Assembly: GCF_002251245.1 (NCBI RefSeq)
Contig: NZ_NPJG01000007.1
Location: 1 to 64,000 of the forward strand
Direction: 5' to 3'
DNA: 64,000 nucleotides
Source of the DNA: Prevotella sp. P5-92
Lineage (GTDB): Bacteria > Bacteroidota > Bacteroidia > Bacteroidales > Bacteroidaceae
Positions 10,378 to 60,872 of the stretch are shown here, piece after piece (within the stretch, counting starts at the first letter, position 1; every line of letters starts with the position of its first letter). Below the pieces are notes generated by a model. The model was given only the letters and a program-made list of their open reading frames with translations. It did not search any database and was not told where the DNA came from. A program made the translations under genes and the position numbers.

Positions 10378-10398
10378 AGGTAAGGAAAGGATATATTT

Positions 10399-11733: not shown

Positions 11734-11814
11734 CTATTTGGGAGACAGGTGTATCTTCCGCAAAAACACCAATAGAATAGGTAAATAAATTAGTATAAAT
11801 AAATCTTAGTAGTT

Positions 11815-13710: not shown

Positions 13711-13725
13711 TACAATAAATACTCT

Positions 13726-13770: not shown

Positions 13771-13808
13771 GGTATTAACAACAACAATATCATATATATA
13801 ATAAGGTA

Positions 13809-14834
13809 ATGAGAAGCAAGTATTGTCTGCTGATGCTGCCCGCTGCGGCGGTGGTGCTCTCGTCGTGCTCCATCATCGACGAGGACAACTCCGACTGCGG
13901 ATTGGACAACAAAATCGTATATCGCCTGAAACTCAGAACAAACATCCAAACCGAACTCGAAACACAGCTCGGCACGGAGGAGGAACGCCCCGTGGCACAA
14001 GCACTCAGCTCCTCACTCAGCGGTATATTCACTGACTGGGCACACGACATCTCTCTCTCATTCTATGACACCGACGACAAACTGTATAAAACGGAAAAGC
14101 ATACGATGGATGCGTCGCAAGCCGAATACGTGGTGTATCTGCCAGAACGTGACTACCGTAATCTCGTTGTGGCAAATATAGCCGACGCTGAAAATATCCG
14201 CCCCCTCGATGACACCCATCCCGATGACATGAAGTTGCAGTATGACAACCTCACCGACACCCTCAACAGCCACACCACCGGTCTCTTCACCGCAAGACAG
14301 GTGATAGAGGTGTGCGGCTGCACCGAGACATATTACGTTGATCTGTATATGGCTAACAGCTGCGCCGCCCTTGTGGTGGATACCACGGGTGTGGATATAC
14401 GCGGCATGAAGGTGTTCACCCAGGACTTAGCCACCTCCTTCGCCGTGGCTGACAGCACCTACGCCTTCACAGCCAATCCCGTGGTGCGCTCAACTGAGAT
14501 ACCTCTCCCTGGTCAGCACCGCACCTGCCATTATGCCGTTAGCTTCCCGTCGAGGAACAACACCGTAGTCACCGCTTCCGCCGTCAGTCAAGCCCCGGCA
14601 AGGGCAGACTCCCAGGCAGAGACCCTCTTCCGCATAAAGGCATACATAACCCTCCCCGACGGCTCTGTCACTGAGAACATCATCTCTGTGGAGCAACCCC
14701 TCCTCGCCGGTTATCTCAAGATAATAAAGATGAAGATGAAGCAGGACGGCTCGCTCACTCCCGAGAGTCACGACGTGGGAGTAAGCGTGACGCTGGACTG
14801 GAAGCAAGGGGGGACTTATGAGCCGGAGATATAG
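13809..14834 (+). CDS. Mfa2/FimB-family fimbrial anchor lipoprotein
   Basis: A 341-residue lipoprotein with lipobox LSSCS near residue 20 and the following acidic DEDNSDCG typical of the FimB/Mfa2 family, which fix fimbriae to the outer membrane and limit their length. The family has two transthyretin-like domains; strands such as EYVVYLPERDYRNLVVAN fit the first, and YYVDLYMANSCAALVVD begins the second. The C-terminal strand ends in VSVTLDWKQGG, similar to the shaft subunit's last strand. It stops 22 bases before the next lipoprotein. Confidence 0.85.
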   Translation: MRSKYCLLMLPAAAVVLSSCSIIDEDNSDCGLDNKIVYRLKLRTNIQTELETQLGTEEERPVAQALSSSLSGIFTDWAHDISLSFYDTDDKLYKTEKHTMDASQAEYVVYLPERDYRNLVVANIADAENIRPLDDTHPDDMKLQYDNLTDTLNSHTTGLFTARQVIEVCGCTETYYVDLYMANSCAALVVDTTGVDIRGMKVFTQDLATSFAVADSTYAFTANPVVRSTEIPLPGQHRTCHYAVSFPSRNNTVVTASAVSQAPARADSQAETLFRIKAYITLPDGSVTENIISVEQPLLAGYLKIIKMKMKQDGSLTPESHDVGVSVTLDWKQGGTYEPEI

Positions 14835-14856
14835 AAGCCTTGATTTTTTTTTAGAG

Positions 14857-16275: not shown

Positions 16276-16292
16276 ATAAAATAGATAATAAT

Positions 16293-25200: not shown

Positions 25201-28200
25201 TCCTCCAGCAAGACCTGAAGGGTGATGACCCTAAGTTTGTCTATATTGACGATGAGGGAAATACCGTTAGTCAGAGCACCTCAGGGGCAAAGGCGGCGGG
25301 TGCCGGTATCTACCGCCGCACTGCTTACGACTATGACAATGTCAACACGGGTGAGACGGCTGTGCCTATAGGCAAAGACGAGTATATGACATACGCCGAT
25401 GGTACGGGCAAGGCGATGCTGCGTATTTCCACTGACCCTAACCCTACTCACCACCAAACTTACATTGATCTCGGCGTGTATGAATACCAGCACGTTAAGC
25501 TCGACCCGTCGGTGGAGGACGGACATATCGATGTGCTTTGGGTGACGCAGCAGGAGAGAACCAGTGCCTCGGTGGCTGACGGCAAGACTTGGGCAACGGC
25601 TACGAGCGACGTGCAGCGAGCTATAGAGACCTTGCTCGCATCGCGCAACGGACACGACAAGGAAATCCGTATGCTCGAAGGACGATACCAACCCGTATAT
25701 ACCATCAACGGCAATCTCGGTTTCACTATCACTACCGACATCACCACGGGTGTAGTGCCGCCCGATTGGAGTGGCTCGACATCCAAGGGTGTGAACTCCC
25801 TTACTATACGTGGAGGCTATAGTAAGGATGTGCAGGGATTGGAGAACATTCACGACTATCCCGTATATCTTTTTGCTTCAGAACGCTCAGGTGTGGATGG
25901 CAATCTGCTCGGACATGTGTTTGTGATAGGTGATGTAAGGCAGAGGGAATCGTCGGGTTCTTCTACAGATAATAAGGTTACTACCAATGTGAAAGACTAT
26001 GTAGTTCCTGTATATCTCGACGGATTGACCTTCTGTAATATTAAGTCTAAGCCGCATAAAGATATTGCCGGAAACAGTTGCTCAGGCGGAGCCGCTGTGT
26101 TCTATAAGGATCAGAAGATAGATGACAATACTTTTGTTGGCAAATCATACGTTACGGAGAATGGAGAGAATGTCAGCGATAATGGTGTTGAATATACACA
26201 ATATCCAATCAGCGGCACAGAATCTAAATATCCTCTCTATAAGCTGACGATGAACCGCTGCGACTTCCTCATCAATGGAGCAACCTCAGAAGTGCCGGCA
26301 GTAACGATAGGCGAGGGTGGAGGTGAGGCTCTGATATATAACTCCGTATTCCATAGTAATACGGGTAGTCCGCTCGTCGGTACAGACACTAAGGTGGTAA
26401 ACTGCACTTTTGCTCTCAATGGCGGTAGTATTCAATTCAGTAACACTGAACAGGGCAAGTCGGAAATGCATAACTCTGTGCTTTGGAGAAATAATGGATA
26501 TGAGACTACTGATGAATGGACAGGACTTTCCTCTGGAAGTATGACATATAATGCCATATCGTCGCTCAGTCCAGAATATGAAGTCAATAATAATGTGACC
26601 TTGTCATCTGACAACAACAACGTGCTGCAAGGCCCGAACTTCTTTGACCCCGCATTGTCTGCTGCCGATGATGACAATTGGGCTAAGGCTTCGCGTGACT
26701 TCCGTGTCAACCCGAGTGCAAAGATTATCGGTAAGGCATCGCCTAAGAAATATGTGGAACTCGTGAAGGACCTCACGGGAAGGTATCCTTATACTTCTGA
26801 CGTGGCTATTTCGAATGCCAATGATGTCAACGACCCATATTATGTGGACTTGGTGAAGCAGGACTTCGACCTTGCCGCCAACACCCGCCATTACGGCTCT
26901 GCCGGTATGGAGCGTGGAGCTTACGAATGTATTGCCACTCTGAGCCGTGTGCTCTATGTCAATCCCGAACGTGTGTCGTCAAGTGCCGACTACAATGGAT
27001 TCTCATGGGAAAAGGCATATACCAAGGGCAATCTCCAGAAAGCCATCGATGCCGCAGCCGTTTATTCTAACGTACATAATAAAGAGAAATCGTATGTCTT
27101 TGTCAAGGGTATGGCCACATCTACCGGTGAGACCATCACCATGCGCGACAACGTAACGCTTTATGGAAGTCTGCCGTCAACCACAGGCATCAATACGGGA
27201 GTAGTGGAGACAACGCATGATGACGGAAGTAAGTCATACGATGACGACAAGATTATAGATTATATCAAGGCAATGGATTCCGACCGCGACGGTATGGCTT
27301 CTTCTTATTCCAAGCATACCATAGTCAATGGAGTCAAATCGACAGAGGATTTGGACTATTGCCTCTTCGACGGCCTTCTGATTGGTAATGCCGATAACGG
27401 TGATGCAAACTCATCCGCTTCGCCCGTGGTGGATATACAGAAAGGCAATGTGGCTCTACGCAACTCCATCATTGCCAACAATGAGATTACTTCCACTAAC
27501 CAGCCGCTTGTCAATATGAAGTCGGGACTGCTCTACAACACGCTCATACGTGACAACAAGGTGGCTGAAACTTCAGATGCTCTCGTCTCGCTTGAAGCTA
27601 ACGGCTATATGCTCAACTGCACCGTAGTAGGAGGTGACTTGGCTCAAGTCACCCCCGCCTCAAATGCCATTAATAATATAATGTATAAGGAGACAGACGC
27701 GGCCATGCCTTTCGCCCCGTATTTCCGTCATTCTTCTACGGCTTATCATGGAAAGATACCTGAGGCTGATGTAAGCAACCGCAACCTCTGGTATCAGTTG
27801 CATGAGAGAACTACTAATATTGAAGGAGGCGACAATGGCACGTCAAAAGATGCCGCTGGCAAATACGATGGTAAGAGCCATGTGTCAGAAAACCTCAAGC
27901 AGTATGTTGATTATACCTCAGACCGTGACCTTCTCGGCAATCCCCGGTTCCTTGGTACCCGGGTGGATAAAGGATGCTTTGAGACATGGTCAACGGGTGC
28001 GATGACGGAGTCAGGCACTGTAGATCCCAATGATCTCTTTGTCGATGCTGACCCTGATAATTACAACAGACAGAATTATCCGCACGAGGGTTCGGTGGTT
28101 TATCTGCAGCCAGCAGGTAAATTAGTATGTAAGAATATAACCGACGGAGCGGGTAATGTGACATCGCATTACTTTACCGATGACAATCCTCTGCGCCCTG

Positions 28201-45075: not shown

Positions 45076-48000
45076 TTATAGCTTCCAGTGTTTTTTTAGG
45101 ATAGCTATGAACTGTTTCAAGTTACGTTGTTCCCTGAAATACATGTGTGAGCAGTCGATAAAGAATAAGGGTGAATTGGGATAGTGAGTTCTCCAATTCT
45201 CAATATTCTCGCTCCATGCCCTACGCAAATTTTTCTTATAGAGTTTTATTTCTTGGGCATTGTCGGTGTTAGGAAGGTTGTCCATGGGTTGGTTGACCAT
45301 GACATGAACCACAGGACCAGAATAGTTGAGTGGAGGCATCGAGTGATAGATGCTGTCGAAGATCCTGACGCGCTCGGGACTATTGGCATATCCAGCGCCA
45401 ATATTCAGTCTATTGTATAGAGTCCTGTCGTAGATACCTTCAATATTCAAGACCTGAAGTTTTAGTCCGTCATGGTGCTCTTGCATATATGCCGCCAGGG
45501 CAAGGGACAGTTCTGCACCGACACAATAGCCAGTGATAGCAAATATCTCCTTGTCTTTAAGAGCCACGGAGATGATGTCGTCATACACTTGGAGAAGACC
45601 GTCAAGCGTCACCTCTTTCTTGTTGAGGAAATGGTTGATGAACGACTCGATGCAGAAGACGGAGAAATGCTTTTCGAGACAGCTTACCACAGGTTCGTTG
45701 TAAGGATAGTAGTCAACAAAGCCATTAATGAAGATGATGACTGGTTTGTCAGTATAACTACCCTCGCTCCAGAAATATATTTTTTTGTCAACCTCTTTTT
45801 CAAGGTTAGCAATGGTGATGGCATTCTTAACGTCGAAGGTGGTGAAATAAAGGTTTTCGGCAGTTGCTGCCTTGGAAACAAAAGAGGCAATCTTGGCTTC
45901 TGTCATACCGTGAAAGAGCTGTGTGTCGGCGGAGATAGACTCATCATGACACATATCTCGAGCTATGCGCAGAAGCTTATGTAGGGTGGAGTTGTCGCTA
46001 TTTTTGTTGATGGAATCAATGAAAGACGCTAACTCAGAGAGAGAAGCATACTGATAAATGTTGGTGACACTCAAGTTGACGCCCAGACGCTCGTGGATGG
46101 CATAGATGAGTTTGATAATGGAGATAGAATCGCCGCCAAGGGATGAGAACGTGTCGGAACGGCCAATGAAATCCACCTTGGTTATGTCGCTCCATATCTT
46201 TGCCAAAATCTTCTCGGTGAATGTCACGGGTACGAGATAGTCCTCAATATCCTTGTTTTCGTTGGGAGAAGGGAGTTTGGAACGATCGACCTTCCCGCTC
46301 GTATTATATGGGAAGCTCTTCAAAGGAACTATGAAGGCGGGAAGCATATATACTTGCAGATTCTGGGTCAGGTAGAGGCGCAGAGCGTCGATATTAAACG
46401 ACTTAGGATCCGTTACCTGGATGTAGGCCACGATTGTCTTTATGCCGTCGTTGTCGCGGACGACAGCAACAGCATCGCTTATGCCGTGGCCATAGTTCTT
46501 GATTTTCGACTCTATCTCTCCCAATTCGATGCGGAAGCCGTTTATCTTCACCTGAAAGTCAGAACGACCATGAAAAATAAGGTGACCGTTGGGAAGCCGT
46601 GCCGCAATATCGCCGCTCTTGTATAATGAAGTGTTGTTGCCGGCAAGGCGGTCTTGCCTGGAGACATAAGGGTTGTCAACAAACTTCCTGGCGTTGAGAT
46701 CATGAAGGTTGAGATAGCCGCCGGTGAGTTTATGTCCTCCGATATGGAGTTCGCCAATGGCATAGTCTGGAAGGAGATGTAAGTTGTCGTCGAGAACATA
46801 ACAGGTAACACCGGGCATGTTCATGCCAATGTCGTTGGTGCACGACTCTGCGGATATGATATTATATGTAGTGTCAACGGTGTTTTCAGACGGTCCATAT
46901 ACATTGATCAACGTCCTTCCCTTGCTCCAGAACTCCAAGGCCTCCTTTGTAGTGGTGTCGCCGCCGATGATGATATAGGACAGCGACGGGATATCAACGT
47001 GAGGCAGATTAGACAGCATGATGGCCGGAAGAGTAATCAAGGTGATATTGTTACGGAGGAGGAAAGAGACGAGCAGCTGGGAGTCTTTCCTCTCTGTATC
47101 TAATGGCAAGTATAGGGTGCAACCGGATGCCAAGGACGGGAATATCTCTACAACAGAAGCATCGAAGACGACATTGATATACTGCATGATGCGTGTTGAT
47201 AAATTTAGGTTGAGGAGTGAGATATTGTTGGCTATGGTATATGCCAATAACCTATGGCTGATGGGGATACCCTTAGCCATACCAGTGGTGCCCGACGTGT
47301 AAATGATATATGCAGTGTCGTCTAACGACGGTGGCTGAAGAGCGAGGGTGTCGTCAGTGTCGGGTATTCGCTTGACGTTTATGGTGGGGAGAGTCTCGAA
47401 GCAATCCTCTGTCTCGTCACACACGACGACGAGGGACAGGCGGCAGTCGTCGGCTATATGACGGATGCGGCTCTTGGGGTTGTTACTGTCAAAGGGTACG
47501 TAAGTGTTGCCAGACATGAGAATGCCCAGAATGCCGATGATAGTGTCGGCGCTTTTGGGAATGGACAGTCCCACGTTGCTATGAACGATATTCATGCTCC
47601 TGAGATGAAGAGCCAGGGCACGGCTCTTATGATAGAGCTCAGAGTAGGAGAGCGACGTGCTATCGTAAACCACTGCCGGCTGTTGGGGAAACGAGTTGAC
47701 AACAGACTTAAAACGACTCAAGAACGATACGGGCTCTTCTACCTTGTGAAGAAAAGAGTTCTCAATGTCTGTTAGTGCCTTTTCTTTTTCTGGGGAGACT
47801 AGACGGATGTCGGAGAGTCTGATATCGGGATTGTCGGCAAACTGACAGAGCACATAAGAGAACAATTGCGTGAGCGACTCTATCAGTTTTCTGTCTATCT
47901 TGGGGTTATGTCTGATCTCGCAGCTTACGACACTGTCAGTCTCGATGGAAAGCATGATATCTGTTGACAACGGCATGTGTACATGTTTCCAAAGCCGTGT

Positions 48001-49080
48001 GGTACAACCCTGAAACTCGAGTTGTATGCTATTGAGACATAGCGGATAGTTGATGCCCACGTTTAGCGGTGTTAATACTCCGTTGTTATTTTCTTGGTGA
48101 AACAACTCGCTGAGATGAAAATGGCAGTGAGCCCTCTCGTTGTCCCTGTTTTCGTTAGAGTAAGTGAGAAGGTCGAGGAAAGACTCGAAATCACCGAAGG
48201 CGAATCTTATGGGCAGATTATTGATATATGTGCCGTAGATAGCTTTGTCTTTCGGCAACATGTTGAGTGAATGTACCAAAAGCAGTTCGCGCGTGTTGAA
48301 CATCTTGGATAGGGCAAAAGCCCATGCCGAGGAGTAGATGCGGAAAAGAGTGGTATGAAGGCTTTGGCACAAAGAGGTCAGCCGTTGCTCCAGTGCGGGA
48401 CTTAAGGTGAAGGGGAACGAATATGACGACTCGTCATCATCAGATATTGACGCCTCTTGCGTCATGGAGATGCTTATGGGCGTATTGGAAATATACTGTC
48501 TCCAATATTTCTCATTGTCTTCCTTAGACTGGGAGAAAAGATCTTCTAAGGATGTAGTATGGCAGATGATGTCGTTGGTCTGTGGGCAAGGCGAGTAACG
48601 GTGTTCTCTCAGCTGGTTGTAAATGACTGACAACCTGTCGAAGAATAGTCGGGCAGTATTGCCGTCGAGAACGATATGGTGTATGAGATGGAGCAAGAAA
48701 AAGTCGTTGCCTGACTTGATGCAATAGAACCGGCACGGAAACTCGCAGTTTAAGTTGAAAGGTCGTTTGGCCAAAGTCTCAATAGCAGAGTCCAGAGAGC
48801 CGTATTCGATGATGTCTTTACTGTCCAGGACGTGTAGAGGCACAGCGAAATTATCAGAGTCATGAACGAAATAAACATTGTTGTCAACAACTTGTATGGT
48901 AGAGGAAAACGGCAGATATTCGAGCATGATGTTTCTGTAAGTCTCCCTAAGTGTAGAAACAGACAGATCGCCAGAAATCTGAAAAGTGAAGTTTATCTCA
49001 TTATATTCAGATGAGGGATATTTCAGACAGTCGTCCAAATATAGTTTTTCTTGAAGTATGTTCAATCTTATCTTGTTCAT
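45076..49080 (-). CDS. one-module NRPS (C-A-T-TE) with Cys-type thioesterase
   Basis: A 1334-residue nonribosomal peptide synthetase. Condensation: about 1-430, active motif HHIVLDG at 134-140. Adenylation: about 455-940, with YTSGTTG (594-600), NVYGPSENT (726-734), YKSGDIA (820-826), and the A10 lysine K930. Peptidyl carrier: GGDS with phosphopantetheine serine S985. Thioesterase: 1110-1334, nucleophile elbow GYCVG with Cys1186 instead of Ser, likely Glu1214 and His1312. The specificity code, aligned by eye to GrsA, is D640 A641 V644 T683 I704 G706 V727 V735 D736 K930. No elongation module follows, so the condensation domain likely attaches an acyl or aminoacyl donor to one amino acid. It is coupled (2-base gap) to the receptor gene upstream. 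Confidence 0.9.
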   Translation of the reverse strand: MNKIRLNILQEKLYLDDCLKYPSSEYNEINFTFQISGDLSVSTLRETYRNIMLEYLPFSSTIQVVDNNVYFVHDSDNFAVPLHVLDSKDIIEYGSLDSAIETLAKRPFNLNCEFPCRFYCIKSGNDFFLLHLIHHIVLDGNTARLFFDRLSVIYNQLREHRYSPCPQTNDIICHTTSLEDLFSQSKEDNEKYWRQYISNTPISISMTQEASISDDDESSYSFPFTLSPALEQRLTSLCQSLHTTLFRIYSSAWAFALSKMFNTRELLLVHSLNMLPKDKAIYGTYINNLPIRFAFGDFESFLDLLTYSNENRDNERAHCHFHLSELFHQENNNGVLTPLNVGINYPLCLNSIQLEFQGCTTRLWKHVHMPLSTDIMLSIETDSVVSCEIRHNPKIDRKLIESLTQLFSYVLCQFADNPDIRLSDIRLVSPEKEKALTDIENSFLHKVEEPVSFLSRFKSVVNSFPQQPAVVYDSTSLSYSELYHKSRALALHLRSMNIVHSNVGLSIPKSADTIIGILGILMSGNTYVPFDSNNPKSRIRHIADDCRLSLVVVCDETEDCFETLPTINVKRIPDTDDTLALQPPSLDDTAYIIYTSGTTGMAKGIPISHRLLAYTIANNISLLNLNLSTRIMQYINVVFDASVVEIFPSLASGCTLYLPLDTERKDSQLLVSFLLRNNITLITLPAIMLSNLPHVDIPSLSYIIIGGDTTTKEALEFWSKGRTLINVYGPSENTVDTTYNIISAESCTNDIGMNMPGVTCYVLDDNLHLLPDYAIGELHIGGHKLTGGYLNLHDLNARKFVDNPYVSRQDRLAGNNTSLYKSGDIAARLPNGHLIFHGRSDFQVKINGFRIELGEIESKIKNYGHGISDAVAVVRDNDGIKTIVAYIQVTDPKSFNIDALRLYLTQNLQVYMLPAFIVPLKSFPYNTSGKVDRSKLPSPNENKDIEDYLVPVTFTEKILAKIWSDITKVDFIGRSDTFSSLGGDSISIIKLIYAIHERLGVNLSVTNIYQYASLSELASFIDSINKNSDNSTLHKLLRIARDMCHDESISADTQLFHGMTEAKIASFVSKAATAENLYFTTFDVKNAITIANLEKEVDKKIYFWSEGSYTDKPVIIFINGFVDYYPYNEPVVSCLEKHFSVFCIESFINHFLNKKEVTLDGLLQVYDDIISVALKDKEIFAITGYCVGAELSLALAAYMQEHHDGLKLQVLNIEGIYDRTLYNRLNIGAGYANSPERVRIFDSIYHSMPPLNYSGPVVHVMVNQPMDNLPNTDNAQEIKLYKKNLRRAWSENIENWRTHYPNSPLFFIDCSHMYFREQRNLKQFIAILKKHWKL

Positions 49081-49082
49081 TA

Positions 49083-51491
49083 TCAGAAGAAATATGTAAG
49101 TTTAAATACAAGATTAAATCTTTCTTGGGGGATAGGCACGATAAAGCTGCCGCCCTGCAAATAGTCATTGTTGGTGATGTTATATAGATCTAACGAACCT
49201 TTTATGGCTTTGTATTGACAGTCGATGCCTGTGTTGACCACAGCGCAGCTACTCAGTTGGTACAGTGGGTCGGAGAAGCTGTTACAGTTGACAAAGATGA
49301 GATTAGACGTCAGTGGCGAATATTGTTTTGTGACGAACGATATGTTGGCCTTGACATTCATCTTCCAGTCTTTTTTCTCCAGTAGTCTGTAGCAGGTTAT
49401 GGCGTTGAGCTTGAAGTCGGGCACACCGTTGATGTGTGAGTCGGTAACGATATAATTTTCGCTGTCAATGACTAGCTGGTAAGAGAAGTTCAACTGCGCA
49501 TACCATCTGTTCTTTTGGTAAGACAAGACATTCTCGATTCCCAGAACCCTGAGCGAACCAGCATTTGACAATATATTGCCTGTGGTGCTGGGATTGAAAT
49601 AGATATTATCAGAGAGAGAGTTGTAGTAGATGTTGCAATCATACTTCAGCGACAGAGACTTGAAGTGGTGGCTGTAGCTGAGTTGGATGGCGTCCATCTT
49701 TTCCGCTTCCAGGTTGCTGCCGCCTTCGTATGTGGATATTGTTGTAGCGCGGTAGAAGTAAGGTGCATCGACAAAAGAGTGGGCATAGCCCAATTTTAGG
49801 TTGCTGTAAGGAGAGATCTTATAAACCAATGACAGACGTGGCGAGATCTCGTTAAGATTCTTGTCGTTGTAGCGGTGTTTGTTGTCGTAGCGAATACCTC
49901 CATTGAAGATGATACGGTTGTTCCACGATAACTTAAGCTGCGAGAATGCAGACATATACAATTCGTTGCCGGTGATGATAGACCTGTTAGCGTCGGAGAA
50001 AGTGATGAGGACTCTATCAAAATGGTCGCCGCATATCATCGTATTGTCTTTCATCGTGTAGTTCTCGATCTGTACTCCACACAACAATGCGCCGTTTAAG
50101 GACTGAGTTCCGAAAGAGTAGGTGGACTGAAGTATGCCGCCATAGGTATAGTCGTTCCATGCTTGTACCTGATACAAGCCATTGTCGCATGTGCCAGGTA
50201 GTGCCGGTCCGGGATTGAGGATCTCGCCCGGTCCGACAGGCATGAACCTACTGTCCTCCATGATAGAGTCGCCGCAGACATCATAGTTAGAGCAGCTTTC
50301 CATATCCACGTAGGTCTGGAGCTTTGCCGACCATTTCTGCCATGACTTCTCGTAAGATAGTTCGATGTGAGTGTTGTCTCTTGAATGTCCTGGTGTAGTC
50401 CCGTTAATTTCCCTGTATCTGTCGTATGAATAAGGAGCTAGGTGCAGGAGGTTGGAGTAAGCCACTACCTTTTTTGAGCTTTGCGTGTTTAAGAGGAAAA
50501 TGAAACCGTTCCATCTAGCCGTTATGCCGATGTCGTATGAAGGTTTGTGGTTAAATCCATTAAGATACATATACCCTGGTGTAGGCACGCGACCATAGAA
50601 TTCCTTGTCACCCATCTGGATGTCGCGTCTCTCACCTTCTGAAGAGTAGCACGAAGCCCATGCGAGGAAGTCGATGCCGTAAGCGCTTTTTCCCATTAGC
50701 AGGTCAGCCTGGTATGTGTTGTTTTTACCTATGCCAGTCTTTATCTTCAGGCCATCGACATCAGCTCCCCTCTTTGTGATGATATTTACCACGGCGGTCA
50801 AAGCCACATTGCCATAGAGCGAAGAAGCAGGGCCGCGGAGCACCTCTATCTGCTTTATCTTCTCCAGGCTTGTGCGGAAGTCTGGCTGTTCGGAGTTGGT
50901 AGTTCGGCTGTTAAGACGGTGTCCGTCAAGCATGATAAGAATCTTTTCCTGAGTAGAGGAATAGACACCGTGCATGGATACGTTAGTCTCCAATCCTTCC
51001 ACCTTCGACATTCCCGGTACGAACATCACGAGCAGGTCGCCCAGGTTTCTCGCTCCACTTGCCTCTATCATCTCTTCGGTAATGAGAGTCACTGGGACAG
51101 GAGCCTCGTCGATGCTCTCGGCCTGTTGTGAGGCGGTGGTGATGGTGGCAGTCTTGCCGCTCTTCATCTTCTCGATCATATCCGCAAAGCGGAGAGGGTC
51201 GGAGAGGGTGGGAGAGTAGTAAGGGTTCTCCTTAAGTAGCAGCGAGGCGTAGTGTGTTGACTGTTCGTTGTCGTCTTTTTCAAGATAACAGAGCGAGAGA
51301 ATATGGTAGGCTGTGCTACGTGTGCGTGAGCTGAGGTTAGACATGTTGTCGGTGAGCAGTGTTACTGCAGTGTCGAATTGGCCTATTCTGTATGCAGCCT
51401 CTGCTTGTCGGCATATCTCCACGTCACTCTGTGCCTGAGCGAACGACGAGAGTGATAAGAGTATGGCTGCTATGATGAGGAGTCGTTTCAT
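49083..51491 (-). CDS. TonB-dependent receptor with N-terminal TPR region
   Basis: An 802-residue outer-membrane receptor. After the signal peptide comes a 90-residue TPR-like helical region (about 28-110). The plug follows (APVPVTLITEEMIEASGARNL, then VLRGPASSLYGN and NIITKRG) and then a 22-strand barrel ending in aromatic YFF. The usual TonB box near the N-terminus is not obvious. By its place between kinases and the NRPS it probably imports the product, an iron or metal complex of it, or a signal. The start is directly abutting the stop of the kinase gene (51492), so the two are co-translated. Confidence 0.9.
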   Translation of the reverse strand: MKRLLIIAAILLSLSSFAQAQSDVEICRQAEAAYRIGQFDTAVTLLTDNMSNLSSRTRSTAYHILSLCYLEKDDNEQSTHYASLLLKENPYYSPTLSDPLRFADMIEKMKSGKTATITTASQQAESIDEAPVPVTLITEEMIEASGARNLGDLLVMFVPGMSKVEGLETNVSMHGVYSSTQEKILIMLDGHRLNSRTTNSEQPDFRTSLEKIKQIEVLRGPASSLYGNVALTAVVNIITKRGADVDGLKIKTGIGKNNTYQADLLMGKSAYGIDFLAWASCYSSEGERRDIQMGDKEFYGRVPTPGYMYLNGFNHKPSYDIGITARWNGFIFLLNTQSSKKVVAYSNLLHLAPYSYDRYREINGTTPGHSRDNTHIELSYEKSWQKWSAKLQTYVDMESCSNYDVCGDSIMEDSRFMPVGPGEILNPGPALPGTCDNGLYQVQAWNDYTYGGILQSTYSFGTQSLNGALLCGVQIENYTMKDNTMICGDHFDRVLITFSDANRSIITGNELYMSAFSQLKLSWNNRIIFNGGIRYDNKHRYNDKNLNEISPRLSLVYKISPYSNLKLGYAHSFVDAPYFYRATTISTYEGGSNLEAEKMDAIQLSYSHHFKSLSLKYDCNIYYNSLSDNIYFNPSTTGNILSNAGSLRVLGIENVLSYQKNRWYAQLNFSYQLVIDSENYIVTDSHINGVPDFKLNAITCYRLLEKKDWKMNVKANISFVTKQYSPLTSNLIFVNCNSFSDPLYQLSSCAVVNTGIDCQYKAIKGSLDLYNITNNDYLQGGSFIVPIPQERFNLVFKLTYFF

Positions 51492-52331
51492 TTATTTCTT
51501 ATTTATCGGGATGATGAGTGAGAATGAGGAACCGCTGCCTAAAGTAGAGTCAAACTCTATGCGTCCTCCATGCTGATGGATGATGTTGAGAGTGATAGCC
51601 ATGCCTAAGCCGGTGCCCTGTCCCACGGGTTTGGTGGTGAAGAAGTTGTCGTAGAGCTTTTGTTTGACTTCGTCTGTCATGCCGCCGCCATTGTCGTCGA
51701 AGCGCAGACGGAGCATCTCGCCTTCTGATGATGTAGTCACCTGCAGTTCTGGGTGATACTGTTCGCCTTCGATATTGGCCCGTTCCCAGATGGCATAGAA
51801 AGCGTTGTTTACCACGTTGAGGATGGCGCGGCTGATGTCTTGTGGTACTATGGCAATATCGGTAAGGGTGTCGTCGTACTGTTCCTTTATCGACGCGTTG
51901 AACCCGTTGTAGTTAGCTCTCATGGCATGGTAGCCGAGCCACACGTATTCGTGGACGAGGGCATTGATATTGGTGGGAATGCGTAGTCCTTCCTTTCCTC
52001 TTGAATACTGCAGGATATTTTGTATAATGCTGGTGGCACGTTCACCGTGCTCACGTATCTTGGCGATATTCTCCTTCAGGTCGGCCATGATATCCTCGAT
52101 GTCCTCCATATCGTCTGACGAGATTTTATCGGCATTGTCGTCGATATCGTCAGCCAGGTCTTTTATAAGCGTGTCTGAGAGTTTGCTGAAGTTGATGACG
52201 AAGTTGAGTGGGTTTCTTATCTCATGAACTATGCCAGCTGTCAGCAATCCCAATGATGCCAGTTTCTCCTGTTCTTTTATCTGCTGTTGGAGAGCCTCTA
52301 TCTGTTCTTTCAATTGTTCTGTTGTTTCCAT
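51492..52331 (-). CDS. soluble histidine kinase
   Basis: A 279-residue histidine kinase. The N-terminal 25 residues are a coiled coil; the H-box is GIVHEIRNPLNF with phospho-acceptor His36, a long acidic helix follows, and the ATPase half carries the N box NVVNNAFYA, the G1 box DDNGGGM and the G2 box GQGTGLGM. It has no transmembrane segment or sensor domain, so it must be recruited by a partner, most likely the propeller sensor encoded 11 bases upstream. A probable target is the receiver domain of the PP2C protein encoded by the first gene of the operon. Confidence 0.9.
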   Translation of the reverse strand: METTEQLKEQIEALQQQIKEQEKLASLGLLTAGIVHEIRNPLNFVINFSKLSDTLIKDLADDIDDNADKISSDDMEDIEDIMADLKENIAKIREHGERATSIIQNILQYSRGKEGLRIPTNINALVHEYVWLGYHAMRANYNGFNASIKEQYDDTLTDIAIVPQDISRAILNVVNNAFYAIWERANIEGEQYHPELQVTTSSEGEMLRLRFDDNGGGMTDEVKQKLYDNFFTTKPVGQGTGLGMAITLNIIHQHGGRIEFDSTLGSGSSFSLIIPINKK

Positions 52332-52342
52332 ACCCTATAAGT

Positions 52343-55300
52343 TTAAGACTTTTTAATAGGCAATGTTATTGTAAACGTTGTCTCTACTTCCTTAGTTGAT
52401 TCTATCTTTATGTCTCCGCCGTGGTTGAGAATGATCTCACGGCTTAGATATAATCCCACGCCAACGGCTTCTGCTGTTGTCTTAGTGGTAAAGAATGGAT
52501 CGAAGACCTTGCCGATGATGGTCTTTTCAATACCGATACCGTTGTCGTATATGGCTATTATGGCGTTGTTGCCGTCGCTGCTTGTGGAAAGCGACAGTCT
52601 CATGGTAGGCTGGTAAGGCTTCTGTTTGTATTTCTTACATACAGCATATACGCCGTTTCCGATGATGCTCATTATCACGCGGCTAATTTGGTCGGCATCA
52701 ACCATTGCCATGATGTTATCGTCGAGGCCTTGTGTCTCGACCGCGATGCCACACTCCCTGATGTTGTCGGCGAAATACTGTTGTGTCATCTCGATGTTCT
52801 TGCGGCATACTGCAGCTACGTCAGTCTCGACGAAGTTACATTTCCTGTCTTTGAGCATCTCCTCCATGGCCTTAAGTATTCGTGTGGTGTTGATGCCGTG
52901 TTCTTCGATCTTTGTGAGGTTGGTCTTGAGCATGTCAACGATATCCATACAATCCTCGTAGTTGTCGGGTGTCATCTTTTCTTCGTCGTCCTCGAGGTTT
53001 TCGGTGATGTCTTTTATTAGTCCGAGGCTCATGTGCGAAAAGTTGTTAACGTAATTCATCGGGTTGAGGATTCTGTCCACGAGACCCTGTGTGAGTTTGC
53101 CGACGGTGGCCATGCGTTCTTGTCTGAGTAGCTGGTATTGTGCGGCATTAAGCTCGTCAAGGGCTTTCTCAAGACTGTTTGACTTCTCCTCGATCTCGTC
53201 TTTCTGCTGACGTATCTGTGAGGTGCGTTCCTCGACGATAGTCTCGAGTCTCAACTTTTCCTTGAGCAGTCGGCTCATGCGCCATCTAACCACGGCATAG
53301 GTAATGATGGCGAGCAGCATGACATAGAGAAGTATGAAATACCATCTGAGATAAATGGGGTAGTGAACTATGAGGTTCAGGCTGACGGGCTTGGTCGTTG
53401 TACCGTATCTGTCGCGTGCCCTAACCTCAAAAGTGTAGTTGCCCGATCGAGGGTTGGAGAGCTTCACCATGGTCTCCTTTGTCCATTCCGACCAGGGCTG
53501 ATGGCTGCCGAGCCGATAACTGTATTCGGTGTCGCCGATGGTAGATGTAATGTCGGTGGAGAAGTGTATGGTGATGCTGTTGACATCGCTGTCGAAGTCA
53601 AGGCTGCTGAAAGGCATTTTAGTGTCGAGTCTGTCTCCGTTGCTGAATCCTCCCCAAAGTACGGAGTCGTTGTCCATGACGATACGTCTGATATATACCG
53701 CCGCCTTATGGTTGAGGTCGGCGTCCTTGTATGCTGAGTTCCAGCAGATGAGTCCGAAGTTTCCGCCCATCCAGACATTGCCTCCATTGATGTCCATAGC
53801 CCTGACGTTCATGTCGTGGACTGGTCGCAGGAGACTGTTGGTCTTTTTGTAGTCCCCGTTCCATGAGTGGACTTGGAGGTTCTTTCCCTCGTTGTCTGTT
53901 GACCATATCTCGTCGGCATAGGGGAAGACGAGTTGTGGATATTTTCTTGAGTTGTCCCATTTGTCGTTGGAGTTGTATCTCACCATTTTCTTGCTCGTGT
54001 TGTCCCAAATAAAGCTTCCCGTCCTACCGTTTATAATGATCTCGCCGTCGCGTTCGATGATGGTATAGTTATATCGCCCCTCTTTGGTTGTCTCACCTTC
54101 AGGAAGCACCTCGTTGAGTTTGCGGTAGTCGCCAGTGCATCTGAATACCTGTCCATATATGTTTCTTATCCAGAGACTTCCATCGGATGACTTAAAGAAA
54201 TGTGTTGCTTTCTCGATGGTGTTTATCTTGCGTGACAGTCCACCGCCGTTGTCGGTGTTTTGTCCGAAAGCATTTTTGTTGATATTCCGTTTAGGGTCGG
54301 CGATGAGGAATACTCCATCCACTTCTCCCGCATAGTATGTGCCGTCGCCATTGGAGATGGTCTGTACGGTGTGTTTCTTTGTCAGTTGTCTCGCCTTTCC
54401 GTTTTCTATCAAGAAGACACCCTCAGCTGTAGATGCTACGAGGCTGCCGTTGGAGTCGTTGGAGATATTCCAGCAGGCATTAGAGATGTTTCCCACTCTT
54501 TCAAAGGTGTTGTTGCGTTTGACGAACAGACCTCTCAGTGTTCCTACATACAGCGAGCCGGCGGTATGATTAATGCTGAGTACCTCGCCGAACAGTCCGT
54601 CGCTAGCCTGGAAGCTGGTGTAGGCGGTCTTCACGTCTGCAACGAACACACCATTGTCTGTCGCTCCCCATACGTTGCCGTACCGGTCGCAATAAACGGC
54701 ATTGATGTTGTCGTCGCAGAGACCGTTACGCTCGGTGAGATGGTAGGTCTCGTTGCCAGAGGCATCGGTCACTACGAGTCCGCCACCCGCTGTAGCCATC
54801 ACGAGACTGCCATCGTCGAGGGTGGTCTTGTCGTTGATCTTTACACCTTTATATGTGGCGGTAGTCACGGATGGGGTCTTCATGATGATATAGTTGTCCA
54901 TGGAGTGGTCTTCGATGCCGGCAGTGCCGATAGACGTCTCGATACATATCTTCCCGTTTTTCTCGCTGATGCCTGTCACTTCGCCGATGAAGCCTTTGTT
55001 GTCGCGCGAGAAGACGGTCTTCAGTTCCATATTACCGTTTTTTCCAGAGGTAAGGTACCCTAACACATTATAACCTCCCACCCATATACGGCCTTTAGAG
55101 TCGAGATAGAGTCGGGTGATTCGGAATATGCCGGGAGCGTGTATAACGTGCCATTCAGCGTGGTCGTAGTACAAGAGCCCTTCGAAGTTAGCGACATAGA
55201 CACGTCCTTTGTCGTCGCATATCACATCGAAGTTACGGTTGTGCGCGTTATATGCAGCAGGACGGAAATTCACAAAGAACGGATGTCCTACGTTAGCCCT

Positions 55301-55357
55301 TGCATCTGTGACGGCAAGGTAGAGCAGCAGTATGAGAATAGAAAGAAGTCTCTTCAT
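52343..55357 (-). CDS. propeller sensor kinase with a degenerate H-box
   Basis: A 1004-residue membrane protein. A signal peptide is followed by about 650 residues of seven-bladed-propeller repeats (blocks such as DDKGRVYVANFEGLLYYD and DSKGRIWVGGYN) and a Y_Y_Y domain (SYRLGSHQPWSEWT), one transmembrane segment (about 675-695), a coiled coil, and a kinase core. The H-box reads GLVDRILNPMNY, with Asp761 where the partner kinase has His. The ATPase half keeps the N box (Asn901), YDNGIGI and GVGLYLS, so ATP binding looks intact. This may be a conserved subfamily in Bacteroidales, with phosphotransfer supplied by the histidine kinase encoded next. The large propeller would sense a periplasmic ligand. 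Confidence 0.9.
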   Translation of the reverse strand: MKRLLSILILLLYLAVTDARANVGHPFFVNFRPAAYNAHNRNFDVICDDKGRVYVANFEGLLYYDHAEWHVIHAPGIFRITRLYLDSKGRIWVGGYNVLGYLTSGKNGNMELKTVFSRDNKGFIGEVTGISEKNGKICIETSIGTAGIEDHSMDNYIIMKTPSVTTATYKGVKINDKTTLDDGSLVMATAGGGLVVTDASGNETYHLTERNGLCDDNINAVYCDRYGNVWGATDNGVFVADVKTAYTSFQASDGLFGEVLSINHTAGSLYVGTLRGLFVKRNNTFERVGNISNACWNISNDSNGSLVASTAEGVFLIENGKARQLTKKHTVQTISNGDGTYYAGEVDGVFLIADPKRNINKNAFGQNTDNGGGLSRKINTIEKATHFFKSSDGSLWIRNIYGQVFRCTGDYRKLNEVLPEGETTKEGRYNYTIIERDGEIIINGRTGSFIWDNTSKKMVRYNSNDKWDNSRKYPQLVFPYADEIWSTDNEGKNLQVHSWNGDYKKTNSLLRPVHDMNVRAMDINGGNVWMGGNFGLICWNSAYKDADLNHKAAVYIRRIVMDNDSVLWGGFSNGDRLDTKMPFSSLDFDSDVNSITIHFSTDITSTIGDTEYSYRLGSHQPWSEWTKETMVKLSNPRSGNYTFEVRARDRYGTTTKPVSLNLIVHYPIYLRWYFILLYVMLLAIITYAVVRWRMSRLLKEKLRLETIVEERTSQIRQQKDEIEEKSNSLEKALDELNAAQYQLLRQERMATVGKLTQGLVDRILNPMNYVNNFSHMSLGLIKDITENLEDDEEKMTPDNYEDCMDIVDMLKTNLTKIEEHGINTTRILKAMEEMLKDRKCNFVETDVAAVCRKNIEMTQQYFADNIRECGIAVETQGLDDNIMAMVDADQISRVIMSIIGNGVYAVCKKYKQKPYQPTMRLSLSTSSDGNNAIIAIYDNGIGIEKTIIGKVFDPFFTTKTTAEAVGVGLYLSREIILNHGGDIKIESTKEVETTFTITLPIKKS

Positions 55358-55371
55358 AAGCTTTTTTGCAG

Positions 55372-56916
55372 TTAATTTTTGAAGGTTACACGAGGCACGT
55401 TATTGCCTATGTAGTAGTTCCACTCGTCGTCGGTGAAGTCGCGTTTGAGTGCTTTCTGTATCTGTCGTGCCATGGCATCGGTAGAGATGATGAATCTCGA
55501 CACCGTACCAGACTCATCCCCCACGTATATCACATCATCGTCGGCATTGGAAAGGCAGTAAGCCCATCCAGCGAGGTCGCGCAGCGCTACAGCCTCGCTG
55601 TTAGCCGCATCAGCGTCCCAAAGGTTTACTACCCTGTCGTAGCTAGAGGAAAAGAGGAAGTCGTTGTTGAAGCAGAGGTCGGTAATCTCGGAGCGGTGTC
55701 CCACGAGTTTCTGTCGGCTATAGCCATTGACATCGAGGAGATAGATGTCGCCACTGGTAGTGCCAATGGCTGCTTGCTGACGTTTGTCAGACCAGGTGTA
55801 TGCAGTGACGGTTCCTTTCACCATGAGTTCTTTCTTGTCAATCTTTCCGTCAGGATTGATGGCCCAGACACCTCCGTCTTTCCCAAAAATCATCACCGTG
55901 CCGTTACGATCACCGATGGCGGTTATAGGTTGGCCGATATCGTATGTCTTCTTCACCATGCGCCGTGTGGTGTCGAAGAGGTAGGCGTGACTTGCCGACA
56001 CGATGAGCATCTGTCTCTTGCCAAGTCTTACGATACGTTGCCATCCCTTGTTTTCTGGCAGTATGATGGGAGCGGTAACTTGCTGGTTGACAATAGACAA
56101 GAGGGTGCCATTAAATGCGAGGGCGAAGATGGTGCCTTCGCTGTCAGTGGCAACACCTCTGAAGCTGCAGCTATTGTCGTTAGTGAGAAGCTGTTTTGTC
56201 CATTTACCACTGTCGTAGTTCCATCGTGTGATCTCGCCGTATCTGCTTACAGAGACGTAGTCGCCCGTCTTGCTGATACGTGTTATTTCTGAGACTCCTC
56301 CCCTATGGATAAGACTTGAAGAAAAGCTATTGCTGTTTTGGCTTAACGACTTGAATATTACTGGAATATTGACATTGCCTTTGTAGTCGATGGTGAATTT
56401 CCATGCGGCGAAAGCCAAGAGCTTCGATGCGTCGTGGTTGCCGGCAAGATACTGTGTGGATGATAGTGAAGCAAGGGAACGTCCGAGGGCGATATAACTC
56501 AGCGTGTCAGCCACGTTGCGAGCGTGCTCGGCTTGTCGCTGTTGGGTGACAGCTAATTCGCGCTGCTGTTCGGCCATGGAACGAGCTTCCACTTCATTGC
56601 GCGCAGCTTCCTGAGCTTTCATCTGTTCGCTTTCGGCCCTTGACCTCATCTGGTCGGCAATGTTCATCTGATAGAGAGCTTCCTCGCGTCGTTTGTCGGA
56701 TATCTCCATCTGCTGGTAGGCAATGTCTTCCATCTGTTTGCTGATACGTTCCACTACAAAGGAGTTGCCTTCCGTCTGTTCGTATTTCCCCACCTTCTGT
56801 CGTAGAACCTCATTCTCGGCGTGAAGCTTCTCGTTGGTTCTATACAGGAGCGATGTAGCGATGGCAAGAGCCACTGCCGCTACACCTATTATATACAAAG
56901 TAATGCTTTTCTTCAC
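55372..56916 (-). CDS. membrane-anchored coiled-coil WD40-like protein
   Basis: A 514-residue protein with one transmembrane helix at about 6-24, then a long charged coiled coil (about 30-145, rich in Glu, Gln and Met), and a C-terminal beta-propeller (WD40-like) from about 190, with blades such as HRSEITDLCFNNDFLFSSSYDRVVNLWD. The end DDEWNYYIGNNVPRVTF is a motif I associate with WD40 proteins that follow signalling modules. No catalytic domain is visible, so it is probably a scaffold. Its coiled coil could bring the PP2C and kinase proteins to the membrane. The gene is 32 bases after the PP2C stop and 14 before the sensor kinase. Confidence 0.85.
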   Translation of the reverse strand: MKKSITLYIIGVAAVALAIATSLLYRTNEKLHAENEVLRQKVGKYEQTEGNSFVVERISKQMEDIAYQQMEISDKRREEALYQMNIADQMRSRAESEQMKAQEAARNEVEARSMAEQQRELAVTQQRQAEHARNVADTLSYIALGRSLASLSSTQYLAGNHDASKLLAFAAWKFTIDYKGNVNIPVIFKSLSQNSNSFSSSLIHRGGVSEITRISKTGDYVSVSRYGEITRWNYDSGKWTKQLLTNDNSCSFRGVATDSEGTIFALAFNGTLLSIVNQQVTAPIILPENKGWQRIVRLGKRQMLIVSASHAYLFDTTRRMVKKTYDIGQPITAIGDRNGTVMIFGKDGGVWAINPDGKIDKKELMVKGTVTAYTWSDKRQQAAIGTTSGDIYLLDVNGYSRQKLVGHRSEITDLCFNNDFLFSSSYDRVVNLWDADAANSEAVALRDLAGWAYCLSNADDDVIYVGDESGTVSRFIISTDAMARQIQKALKRDFTDDEWNYYIGNNVPRVTFKN

Positions 56917-56948
56917 GTCGGTAGTGTCTTAGTGTCTATTGATACTCT

Positions 56949-58118
56949 TTATTCCAGTCTCCTAATAGCCATCAGCGTGATGTCGTCGCTCTGCGGTTCC
57001 TTGCCGGAAAAGTCATTCACGTCTTTCAATATTTCCTGGCATATGTCATGGCTGCTCTTACCGGCTCCCTTGTTTTCGAGTGTGGTCTCGAGGCCCTTCT
57101 CGTCGAACATCTCACCGCTTGTGTTAAACGCTTCGGTGACACCATCGGTAAACAATACGAGCATGTCGCCCTTGTCGAGTTGGAGTGTTGACTGTGTGAA
57201 CGTGAAGTCGTCGAACATTCCTGCAACGATATTCTCGCTCATGGGTAGGGCGTCGACGGTTCCGTCAGCCCGTACCACATATGGCGGGTTATGTCCTGCA
57301 TTAGTGTATTCAACAAGGCCTGTATCGGTGTTATATATACCATAGAATACGGTGACAAACATCGAGTCGATGCTTTCGTGGCAGAGCATGTTGTTGACAT
57401 AGTTGAGACATTCGTTGGTGTCTATGCCTCTCATGCCAGTGGCTCTAAGGAGAGTGCGGCTGACTGCCATGAAGATCGATGCGGGAACACCCTTGCCTGA
57501 GACGTCAGCAATGACAAATCCCAGTCTTTTCTCGTCTATCTTGAAGAAATCAAAAAAGTCGCCGCCCACCTCTTTTGCTGGCGTCATGGTGGCGAAGAGA
57601 TCTACCATGTCAGCCATTTCCTCAATAGGCGGGAATTTCTGAGGTAGTATAGCCTGCTGTATCTCGCCGGCAACGGCAAGGTCGCTCTTTATCGATACCA
57701 GTTGTGTGTGCTCCTGTTGCGATTTCCTGACGAACTCTATCTCCTCTATCGCCTTCTCAATGGTGCGTGAGAGGTCGTCAAGGTCGATGGGCTTGGTGGC
57801 GAAGTCGAACGCGCCGTTGTTCATGGCCGAGCGTATGTTGCCCATGTCGCCATAAGCAGATACCATGATGCACTTCAGTGCGGGGTTTCTCATCTCGTTG
57901 ATCTTTGTGAGCAATGTGATTCCGTCCATCTCCGGCATGTTGATGTCGCTGAGGATAATGTCGAAATCCTTTTTCTCGAGCATCATCTTTAGAGCTTCGA
58001 GACCGTTGTGTGCAAAGCTGAATTCATATTCACCTTTCCTTATTTTCCTTCTGAAGTATTGCGTGAGTAGGATCTCCAAGTCGAGCTCGTCGTCAACGCT
58101 TAATATCTTTACTGCCAT
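56949..58118 (-). CDS. receiver domain-PP2C (RsbU/SpoIIE-type) phosphatase
   Basis: A 389-residue response regulator. The receiver (about 1-125) has acidic DDE near residue 9, phospho-acceptor Asp58 in ILSDINMPEMDG, Ser/Thr in MVSAYG and the switch Lys in ATKPIDLDD. The output is a SpoIIE/RsbU-like PP2C phosphatase (about 155-389) with metal residues in KEVGGDFFDFF, VIADVSGKGVPA, FTDGVTEA and QSDDITLMAI. Such proteins dephosphorylate an anti-anti-sigma factor or another phosphoserine protein. No anti-sigma partner lies next to it, so the substrate is unknown. It is the first gene of the operon and has a good promoter. Confidence 0.93.
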   Translation of the reverse strand: MAVKILSVDDELDLEILLTQYFRRKIRKGEYEFSFAHNGLEALKMMLEKKDFDIILSDINMPEMDGITLLTKINEMRNPALKCIMVSAYGDMGNIRSAMNNGAFDFATKPIDLDDLSRTIEKAIEEIEFVRKSQQEHTQLVSIKSDLAVAGEIQQAILPQKFPPIEEMADMVDLFATMTPAKEVGGDFFDFFKIDEKRLGFVIADVSGKGVPASIFMAVSRTLLRATGMRGIDTNECLNYVNNMLCHESIDSMFVTVFYGIYNTDTGLVEYTNAGHNPPYVVRADGTVDALPMSENIVAGMFDDFTFTQSTLQLDKGDMLVLFTDGVTEAFNTSGEMFDEKGLETTLENKGAGKSSHDICQEILKDVNDFSGKEPQSDDITLMAIRRLE

Positions 58119-58164
58119 ATTTCGAAGATTATTGTTACTATTCGAGTTGATATTTTTTTCTCTG

Positions 58165-58195
58165 CAAAGTTAATACATTTATTGTAATATGCAAA
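58165..58195 (-). promoter_or_regulatory. promoter of the NRPS-signalling operon
   Basis: On the minus strand TTTG (58195-58192) is followed 19 bases later by TAACTTTG (58172-58165). Transcription would start near 58158, about 40 bases before the PP2C start. No other equally good promoter is seen further down the operon, whose inter-gene gaps are 32, 14, 11, 0 and 2 bases. Confidence 0.75.
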
Positions 58196-60677: not shown

Positions 60678-60751
60678 GGTTCCGTAGCTCAACTGAATAG
60701 AGCATCTGACTACGGATCAGAAGGTTGTGGGTTTGAATCCCGCCGGAATCA
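60678..60751 (+). tRNA. tRNA-Arg(ACG), copy 1
   Basis: 74 nt cloverleaf: acceptor stem GGTTCCG/CGGAATC with one G-U pair, discriminator A, D-stem region GCTC...GAGC, anticodon stem TCTGA/TCAGA with loop CTACGGA (anticodon ACG), and T-loop GGGTTTGAATCCC. The CCA end is not encoded. The next copy is 41 bases downstream. Confidence 0.93.
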
Positions 60752-60792
60752 CTTGAAGTGAACTCGAAGTACAAAAATTGACATTAAGGATT

Positions 60793-60866
60793 GGTTCCGT
60801 AGCTCAACTGAATAGAGCATCTGACTACGGATCAGAAGGTTGTGGGTTTGAATCCCGCCGGAATCA
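60793..60866 (+). tRNA. tRNA-Arg(ACG), copy 2
   Basis: Identical in all 74 bases to the copy at 60678-60751, including acceptor, anticodon loop and T-arm. It probably arose by tandem duplication and lies in the same transcript, which ends in the hairpin at 60873-60907. Two copies suit a heavily used CGN codon family. Confidence 0.93.
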
Positions 60867-60872
60867 CTTGAT

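Follow-up and report, generated by a model that had tools for sequence, protein, structure and literature searches.

A conserved signalling cassette in Prevotella that carries a variable pair of non-ribosomal peptide synthetase and TonB-dependent receptor

The stretch of DNA analysed here (the window) comprises 64,000 nt of Prevotella sp. P5-92 (contig NZ_NPJG01000007.1 of assembly GCF_002251245.1, positions 1-64,000) and contains six minus-strand open reading frames (ORFs) that encode, in order, a response regulator with a PP2C phosphatase output, a WD40-type propeller protein, a propeller-bearing kinase homologue (HK1), a soluble histidine kinase (HK2), a TonB-dependent receptor and a single-module non-ribosomal peptide synthetase (NRPS). 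Comparison with related loci revealed that the five signalling and receptor genes are a conserved cassette with the NRPS as optional cargo, and that NRPS and receptor move between genomes together, as a matching pair, with the adjacent signalling genes remaining in place. We favour, with moderate confidence, the reading of a conserved signalling cassette combined with a variable NRPS/receptor pair, which would allow the cell to detect a small-peptide signal of its own making. Gene order, the division of Asp and His between the two kinase homologues, co-variation and block exchange were obtained by comparing loci; the TPR domain of the receptor and the topology were predicted from sequence and models, and we infer all binding, transfer and output steps of the proposed mechanism.

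The loci were collected by searching the genus of the window with HK1 at E <= 1e-60, which gave matches in 52 of 150 and in 140 of 398 genus genomes, the window's genome included. The 122 loci studied consist of 120 regions around listed HK1 matches (not every match), the window, and L033, a locus in a named Prevotella metagenome-assembled genome. While a single-protein scan of genome contigs gave no match, an alignment-based scan returned L033 and L089, the latter being left out of the counts as a duplicate of L225 (200843-base contig, equal gene lengths). Next to HK1, the PP2C gene was found in 109, the WD40 gene in 120, HK2 in 104 and a TonB gene in 112 of these loci; all five core genes were complete in 96 of 122, some of the misses being due to contig ends. 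A same-strand NRPS gene was present in 30 of the 122 loci, and in 28 of the 92 judgeable loci, in which the receptor gene is complete and sufficient sequence is available. Twenty of these 28 have the order TonB-NRPS and eight the order HK2-NRPS-TonB. An initial reading of the window from its letters and ORF list (the sequence-only reading) had proposed one system of NRPS, TonB receptor and signalling genes; the census agrees with their association, which exceeds chance. A fixed six-gene system is ruled out by the same counts, and HK2 and the PP2C gene can each be missing from a cassette as well. When the NRPS was taken as anchor, the check proposed in that reading, its two placed orthologues (L033 and L214) proved to lie in complete cassettes; the distant NRPSs of the genus are many and were examined in part. 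For the NRPSs P0008, P0009 and P0014 a TonB partner is suggested indirectly, in that the 21579-, 35157- and 8018-base contigs recur for the TonB matches P0214, P0215 and P0222.

Outside the genus, HK1 matched seven other genomes in a sample of 393 from the order. Five of these loci were read (L282-L286); G584 and G673, which matched with the propeller part only, were left out. All five cassette genes are present in L282. L283, L284 and L285, from another family of the order, encode a short Asp-type HK1 (two in L285) together with HK2 and PP2C, and no WD40 or TonB match was found in them. L189 (G025) has an orphan HK1 (4919-7396, plus strand); the sequence read around it contains none of the remaining cassette genes. 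In 18 loci of the first set, the cassette is followed directly by a member of a ~395-aa gene family (AAA_14 in L149, 11708-12895), and an ORF of about 395 aa occupies that place at many NRPS loci too; this gene and other recurrent neighbours were set aside as local synteny and not counted as parts.

The exchange of the pair is seen most clearly in L223 and L224, whose PP2C, WD40, HK1 and HK2 proteins are 93-98% identical, compared with 41% for TonB and 29% for the NRPS. In blastn, their DNA aligns over the core and on into tonB for its first ~746 bases (87%); there is no reported match from that point inside tonB until just past the NRPS stop, where identity returns to 93%. The reverse case is given by L147 and L151, with TonB at 100% and NRPS at 99% against 72-94% for the core, and with 98-100% DNA identity in 300-base windows over NRPS, TonB and into the next gene against 62-90% outside. 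In L219 and L220, TonB (80%) and NRPS (83%) are likewise closer than WD40 (39%) and HK1 (51%). Both flanks of the exchanged blocks are homologous, though draft metagenome assemblies can be chimeric. On quick LG trees of the 92 judgeable loci, gain and loss of the NRPS required four changes when mapped on the TonB tree, compared with 11 for HK1 and a shuffled mean of about 24 on both trees; L144 has a receptor of the window's clade and no NRPS. As a separate observation, a second variable block (WD40/HK1) may exist in L219/L220.

Co-variation was measured from pairwise protein identities in the 28 loci with NRPS and receptor, and partial correlations were calculated given HK1. The Pearson coefficient was 0.83 for TonB and NRPS and 0.50 for TonB and HK1. 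The TonB-NRPS partial reached 0.81 (p 0.0002, n=28) and was 0.75 (p 0.0002, n=21) after removing NRPSs at least 70% identical, while the WD40 control gave a partial with the NRPS of -0.03 (p 0.66). Among the 23 loci with HK2, the partials with the NRPS were 0.80 for TonB, 0.05 for PP2C (p 0.23) and -0.11 for WD40. The relation extends over a range of divergence: NRPS pairs at least 60% identical (32 pairs) have TonB proteins at least 57% identical, pairs with 45-60% NRPS identity (22 pairs) have 54-71%, and pairs below 35% (306 pairs) do not exceed 56% in TonB, though HK1 reaches up to 95%.

The receptor (49083..51491, minus strand) has a TPR-like domain (residues ~20-112) in front of the plug (128-232) and the barrel, as predicted from sequence and models; the fold search covered mainly residues 111-802, and the N-terminus was folded alone from a single sequence. 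The barrel fold matches BtuB, FecA and Cir, and no STN match was obtained for the N-terminal domain. The parts of the receptor follow different partners. Over the 28 loci, the partial with the NRPS was 0.79 for the barrel, 0.64 for the plug and 0.45 for the TPR domain, and the correlation with HK1 was 0.72 for the TPR domain, 0.47 for the barrel and 0.34 for the plug. The separation is sharper in the TonB-NRPS order (n=20), with NRPS partials of 0.94 for the barrel and 0.23 for the TPR domain and a TPR-HK1 correlation of 0.87. Across 91 loci with or without NRPS, the TPR domain correlated at 0.74 with the HK1 propeller and at 0.71 with the WD40 propeller, compared with 0.37 for the plug and 0.58 for the barrel of the same protein, plug and barrel being correlated at 0.86. 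Since the barrel tracks the NRPS and the TPR domain tracks HK1 and WD40, the receptor gene has two evolutionary partners, and the simplest account is that the barrel would bind the product and the TPR domain (51150..51434, minus strand), which co-varies with HK1 and is the predicted signalling face, would report the binding.

HK1 (52343..55357, minus strand) is composed of a predicted periplasmic two-component propeller with Y_Y_Y sensor (Reg_prop and Y_Y_Y in Pfam) and a pseudo-histidine-kinase domain with a HATPase match. In its H-box, GL[IV]DRILNP (GLVDRILNP in the window), Asp stands at the place of the phospho-acceptor His in 122 of 122 copies, and the G2 box is altered (AVGVG versus GTGLG in HK2). 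The HK1 query is itself of the Asp type and the sample leans to Asp accordingly; the same query still found the His-type locus L286. HK2 (51492..52331, minus strand; HisKA and HATPase) keeps the His in 104 of 104 copies. The 'propeller sensor kinase' of the sequence-only reading therefore holds for the propeller, which Pfam recognises, and fails for the kinase, because an ordinary sensor kinase is ruled out by Asp in all copies. HK2 is absent from 18 loci, two of which (L172, L173) are cut by contig ends; as 15 of the 16 uncut loci belong to genomes with HK2 in another cassette, HK2 could act in trans. The split of Asp and His together with this distribution of HK2 is what would be expected of an HK1 that is unable to autophosphorylate on His and acts through HK2. 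Both kinase regions are paralogues (31% identity), and this paralogy and the linkage of the genes suggest that HK1 may bind and control HK2. L286 (G734, 6350-12572) encodes WD40, an HK1-like kinase with intact His and PP2C, no HK2 gene lying alongside; the two HK2-like matches in this genome are both inside large ORFs (1080 and 1258 aa), and the locus is possibly an ancestral or fused form of the relay. Like DivL, HK1 has a kinase region without the acceptor His. DivL carries Tyr at this place and HK1 carries Asp; moreover, HK2 is soluble and sensorless, and the output here is a PP2C and not CtrA. The pairing of a pseudo-histidine kinase with an active kinase is shared with DivL-CckA as described in PMC9430884, and HK1 is probably a DivL-like pseudokinase that steers HK2.

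On the output side, the first gene of the operon (56949..58118, minus strand) encodes a 389-aa response regulator with a SpoIIE/PP2C phosphatase output (PF00072, PF07228). The receiver Asp is found by pattern in 101 of 109 PP2C proteins and by alignment in seven of the remaining eight; its apparent lack was a pattern artefact in these seven, and the eighth (L153) is cut off. The cassette PP2C is the sole SpoIIE match over the cut-off in the window genome, which also has an RsbW-like/RsbV-like pair on another contig, so that both components of partner switching, a SpoIIE-type phosphatase and an RsbV/RsbW-like pair, are present in the genome. SpoIIE matches occurred in all 30 chosen genomes with the cassette, a co-occurrence that is no more than suggestive.

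The NRPS (45076..49080, minus strand) has type I condensation (C), adenylation (A) and carrier (T) domains with the core motifs HHIVLDG, YTSGTTG and GGDSI, a region at ~1030-1100 that resembles a second, degenerate carrier domain, and a putative C-terminal thioesterase (TE) region (45076..45978, minus strand). The C-A-T-TE architecture given in the sequence-only reading is confirmed by Pfam for C, A and T; the putative TE was recognised by its motif and triad residues, and the carrier-like region preceding it comes in addition. The window TE yielded no Pfam match and no significant PDB sequence match, and was read from the GYCVG motif with its Cys nucleophile, a conserved acid and a conserved His as a putative triad Cys1186-Glu1214-His1312. 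In the window NRPS and six relatives, GYC is invariant, Glu or Asp follows at about +28, and the His is conserved. PF00975 was found in three of seven cassette NRPSs scanned (L143, L151, L176), one over the cut-off. Among 30 cassette NRPSs, 19 have Cys, nine have Ser and two have no motif, and Cys as a mark of all cassette NRPSs is ruled out by the nine Ser among 28 readable ones; 16 TE-annotated relatives taken as a control had 11 Ser, four Cys (P0081 with two candidate motifs) and one without motif. A Cys nucleophile is described for ObiF1, SulM and AB3403, and ObiF1 has a GxCxG motif after a C-A-T module like the window NRPS (PMC6668435, PMC11298585). The acid of the window TE lies ~28 residues past the Cys, the ordinary position as in AB3403, and not after beta-7 as described for ObiF and SulM in these sources, and no conserved acid at the later (post-beta-7) position was seen in the sequences of seven aligned TEs. 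Because ObiF/SulM place the acid elsewhere, a strained-ring product does not follow, and a beta-lactone by analogy with ObiF is not supported. The cassette NRPSs have one to three A domains; the reading of their codes was unreliable, with many positions unread, and no substrate is claimed. The operon has no Pfam match to MbtH. The window genome contains an ACPS/PPTase-type gene, and a search with the window NRPS found no second NRPS there, just a 563-aa ORF at E 1e-6. In L177, a MATE gene (9255-10583, plus strand) lies between TonB and NRPS and is a candidate exporter of the NRPS product.

From these parts, the following course of events may be drawn. The NRPS is predicted to make an amino-acid or N-acyl amino-acid product, which would leave the cell and bind the barrel of its cognate outer-membrane receptor. 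From the periplasmic TPR domain of the receptor, the signal would go on to the HK1 propeller and the anchored WD40 protein. HK1, with Asp for the phospho-acceptor His, would set the activity of the soluble HK2 as a DivL-like pseudokinase, and HK2 would phosphorylate the PP2C protein at its receiver, after which the phosphatase would target an RsbV/STAS-type antagonist and release a regulator. On the sequence evidence, the NRPS product is probably recognised by the receptor, which would signal via an apparently undescribed trans-envelope relay.

The sequence-only reading had considered a self-sensing loop and, alternatively, a metallophore. The co-variation and swaps over 28 loci make self-sensing the best reading, followed by metallophore uptake and then by mere linkage of the genes. 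For metallophore or nutrient-carrier uptake, the NRPS would make a small chelator, the receptor would import the loaded form, and the kinase and phosphatase genes would only regulate the operon, uptake being the purpose as in pyoverdine/FpvA. The correlation of 0.83 versus 0.50 resembles that of pyoverdine systems, for which distance matrices of synthetase and FpvA are given as correlated at 0.88 versus a background of 0.51 (PMC11734721), and BtuB, FecA and Cir, the fold matches of the barrel, fit uptake as well. However, with one to three A domains the NRPSs are small for making a strong chelator, neither the operon nor the scan of ten flanking genes showed a chelator-forming gene, no tailoring gene was seen in the operon, Pfam recognised no inner-membrane transporter in the operon, and 64 of the 92 judgeable cassettes have no NRPS. 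We regard this explanation as unlikely and the metallophore idea as unsupported. Somewhat less probable again is that adjoining NRPS and barrel genes are swapped as one block by recombination, with no recognition of the product by the receptor. In favour of this, the swapped DNA is contiguous, the two genes are at most 25 bases apart or overlap in 27 of 28 loci (L177 with its MATE gene being the exception), and a similar but weak signal comes from HK2, the neighbour of the block. This signal is far below the 0.80 of the receptor in the same 23 loci and may itself measure linkage; furthermore, in the HK2-NRPS-TonB order (8 loci, small n), where the N-terminus of the receptor adjoins the NRPS, it is the farther barrel that tracks the NRPS better (partial 0.73 versus 0.53), and the joint divergence extends over a range, as in the 22 pairs of intermediate NRPS identity described above. 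An antibiotic that the cassette senses as a danger or self cue, with self-uptake or immunity, appears very improbable to us. The Cys nucleophile, which is shared with ObiF (beta-lactone) and SulM (beta-lactam), and the MATE gene of L177 would agree with an antagonist, but Pfam recognised no resistance or immunity gene in the operon, the acid stands at its ordinary position, and Ser replaces Cys in nine of the 28 cassette NRPSs with a readable motif.

Several results weigh against self-sensing. Where the NRPS is absent, which is the majority of judgeable cassettes, the receptor must see another ligand, and no exporter adjoins the window operon. The TPR domain partly tracks the NRPS too, with the partial of 0.45 mentioned above. 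Neighbouring genes tend to recombine jointly in any case, and HK2, adjoining the block, had a small partial with the NRPS (0.18, p 0.019, n=23), which was 0.35 (p 0.08) in the eight loci where HK2 touches the NRPS. Rank-based TonB-NRPS partials were lower (0.27, p 0.0002, n=28; 0.23, p 0.004, n=21), with WD40 controls of 0.09 (p 0.06, n=28) and 0.10 (p 0.07, n=21). In the first 12 loci, the partial was 0.37 (p 0.005), 0.23 (p 0.09) minus two near-duplicates and 0.03 (p 0.38) with normalised bits, so the result depended on the measure; because of this ambiguous outcome, the test was repeated on 28 loci. Many loci come from draft metagenome assemblies and were counted without dereplication, and chimeras are possible. 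G130 (draft, 85% completeness) has an HK1 cassette, and no HK2 was found in this genome. SpoIIE matches were also obtained in 11 of 27 chosen cassette-free genomes, and the proposed link to RsbV/RsbW is drawn from the co-existence of the genes in one genome.

In agr pherotype quorum sensing, a hypervariable signal-maker and receptor stand beside a conserved downstream transducer, and the cassette shares this arrangement; here, the signal is predicted to be non-ribosomal, the receptor is a TonB barrel, and the kinase part is conserved and degenerate. As in FecA/FpvA signalling, an additional N-terminal domain of the TonB receptor, located in the periplasm, probably signals ligand binding to an inner-membrane protein; in the case of pyoverdine, the ligand comes from an NRPS and the receptor co-varies with the synthetase. 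In contrast to FecA/FpvA, the N-terminal domain is TPR-like and not of the STN type, no FecR or ECF (extracytoplasmic function) sigma factor is among the six genes (the rest of the genome was not searched), and the relay consists of WD40, pseudokinase, kinase and PP2C. Because the receptor fold was the only feature of cell-surface signalling found, the cassette is not filed under it. The pyoverdine-FpvA pairs also have NRPS and receptor matrices correlated well above background, as reported in PMC11734721. They differ from the present case, in which one to three A domains per NRPS were counted without any chelating part being recognised, a single operon holds receptor, NRPS and the conserved transducer, and the exchange breakpoint of L223/L224 lies inside the receptor gene. 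By analogy, the system may operate in the manner of pyoverdine/FpvA or agr signalling while being built of different components. Only tentatively, and with more doubt than belief, we consider an allelic 'pherotype' language of Prevotella-type bacteria, in which an NRPS of one to three modules and the plug-barrel half of the receptor would form an interchangeable cartridge, specific to each lineage, on a fixed trans-envelope transducer of TPR domain, WD40, propeller pseudokinase, shared kinase and PP2C, and cells would sense self, ignore or eavesdrop on others, and switch dialect by recombination inside the receptor gene.

The ORF list reproduced the six genes of the sequence-only reading exactly in order, strand, coordinates and spacers (32, 14, 11, 0 and 2 bases), and the spacing supports one compact operon, as far as can be read from sequence. 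The candidate promoter at 58165..58195 (minus strand) named in that reading has the predicted form TTTG-N19-TAACTTTG, with TTTG at 58195-58192, a 19-base gap and TAACTTTG at 58172-58165; Bacteroidetes promoters have the form TTTG/TAnnTTTG, and the TAACTTTG arrangement fits. A divergent HSP90 (htpG-like) gene flanks the operon upstream and a convergent ORF ending at 45043 downstream, and there is no same-strand gene within 200 bases past the NRPS. The six proteins were scanned with Pfam and NCBIfam. Pfam agreed with the receiver-PP2C, soluble histidine kinase and TonB receptor (Plug and TonB barrel) identities assigned before and found Condensation, AMP-binding and PP-binding in the NRPS; NCBIfam was consistent in kind for five of the six proteins and had no match for the WD40 protein. 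This 514-aa protein (55372..56916, minus strand) combines a WD40-type propeller, whose Pfam matches are mostly under curated cut-offs, with a coiled coil and an N-terminal anchor, and is predicted to be periplasmic; a hydrophobic stretch lies close to the N-terminus in 100 of 120 copies, and its N-side is more positive in 92 of the 100.

Elsewhere in the window, a 4508-aa ORF with F5/8-type C and beta-helix domains (16197-29723, plus strand) resembles a giant surface-protein locus and is preceded (9772-16275, plus strand) by a DUF3575 gene, a weak-TPR ORF and three ORFs without convincing Pfam match. A HipA-like gene with a small overlapping upstream gene (5220-7018, minus strand) is toxin-antitoxin-like, and two tRNA-Arg(acg) genes stand in tandem at 60678-60867 (plus strand).

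A literature search in open-licence PMC papers found no description of this gene set. A rumen survey reported thousands of NRPS clusters, some of them differentially expressed in Prevotella, and the terms TonB and two-component are absent from its main text (PMC8241843). The cassette would link a class of these NRPSs with a matched receptor and with a relay of defined parts, which makes ligand, receptor and output testable together. It would represent an apparently undescribed route of TonB signalling without STN, FecR or sigma parts in the operon, in which the pseudokinase has Asp for His in all copies read and the two halves of the receptor vary with different partners.

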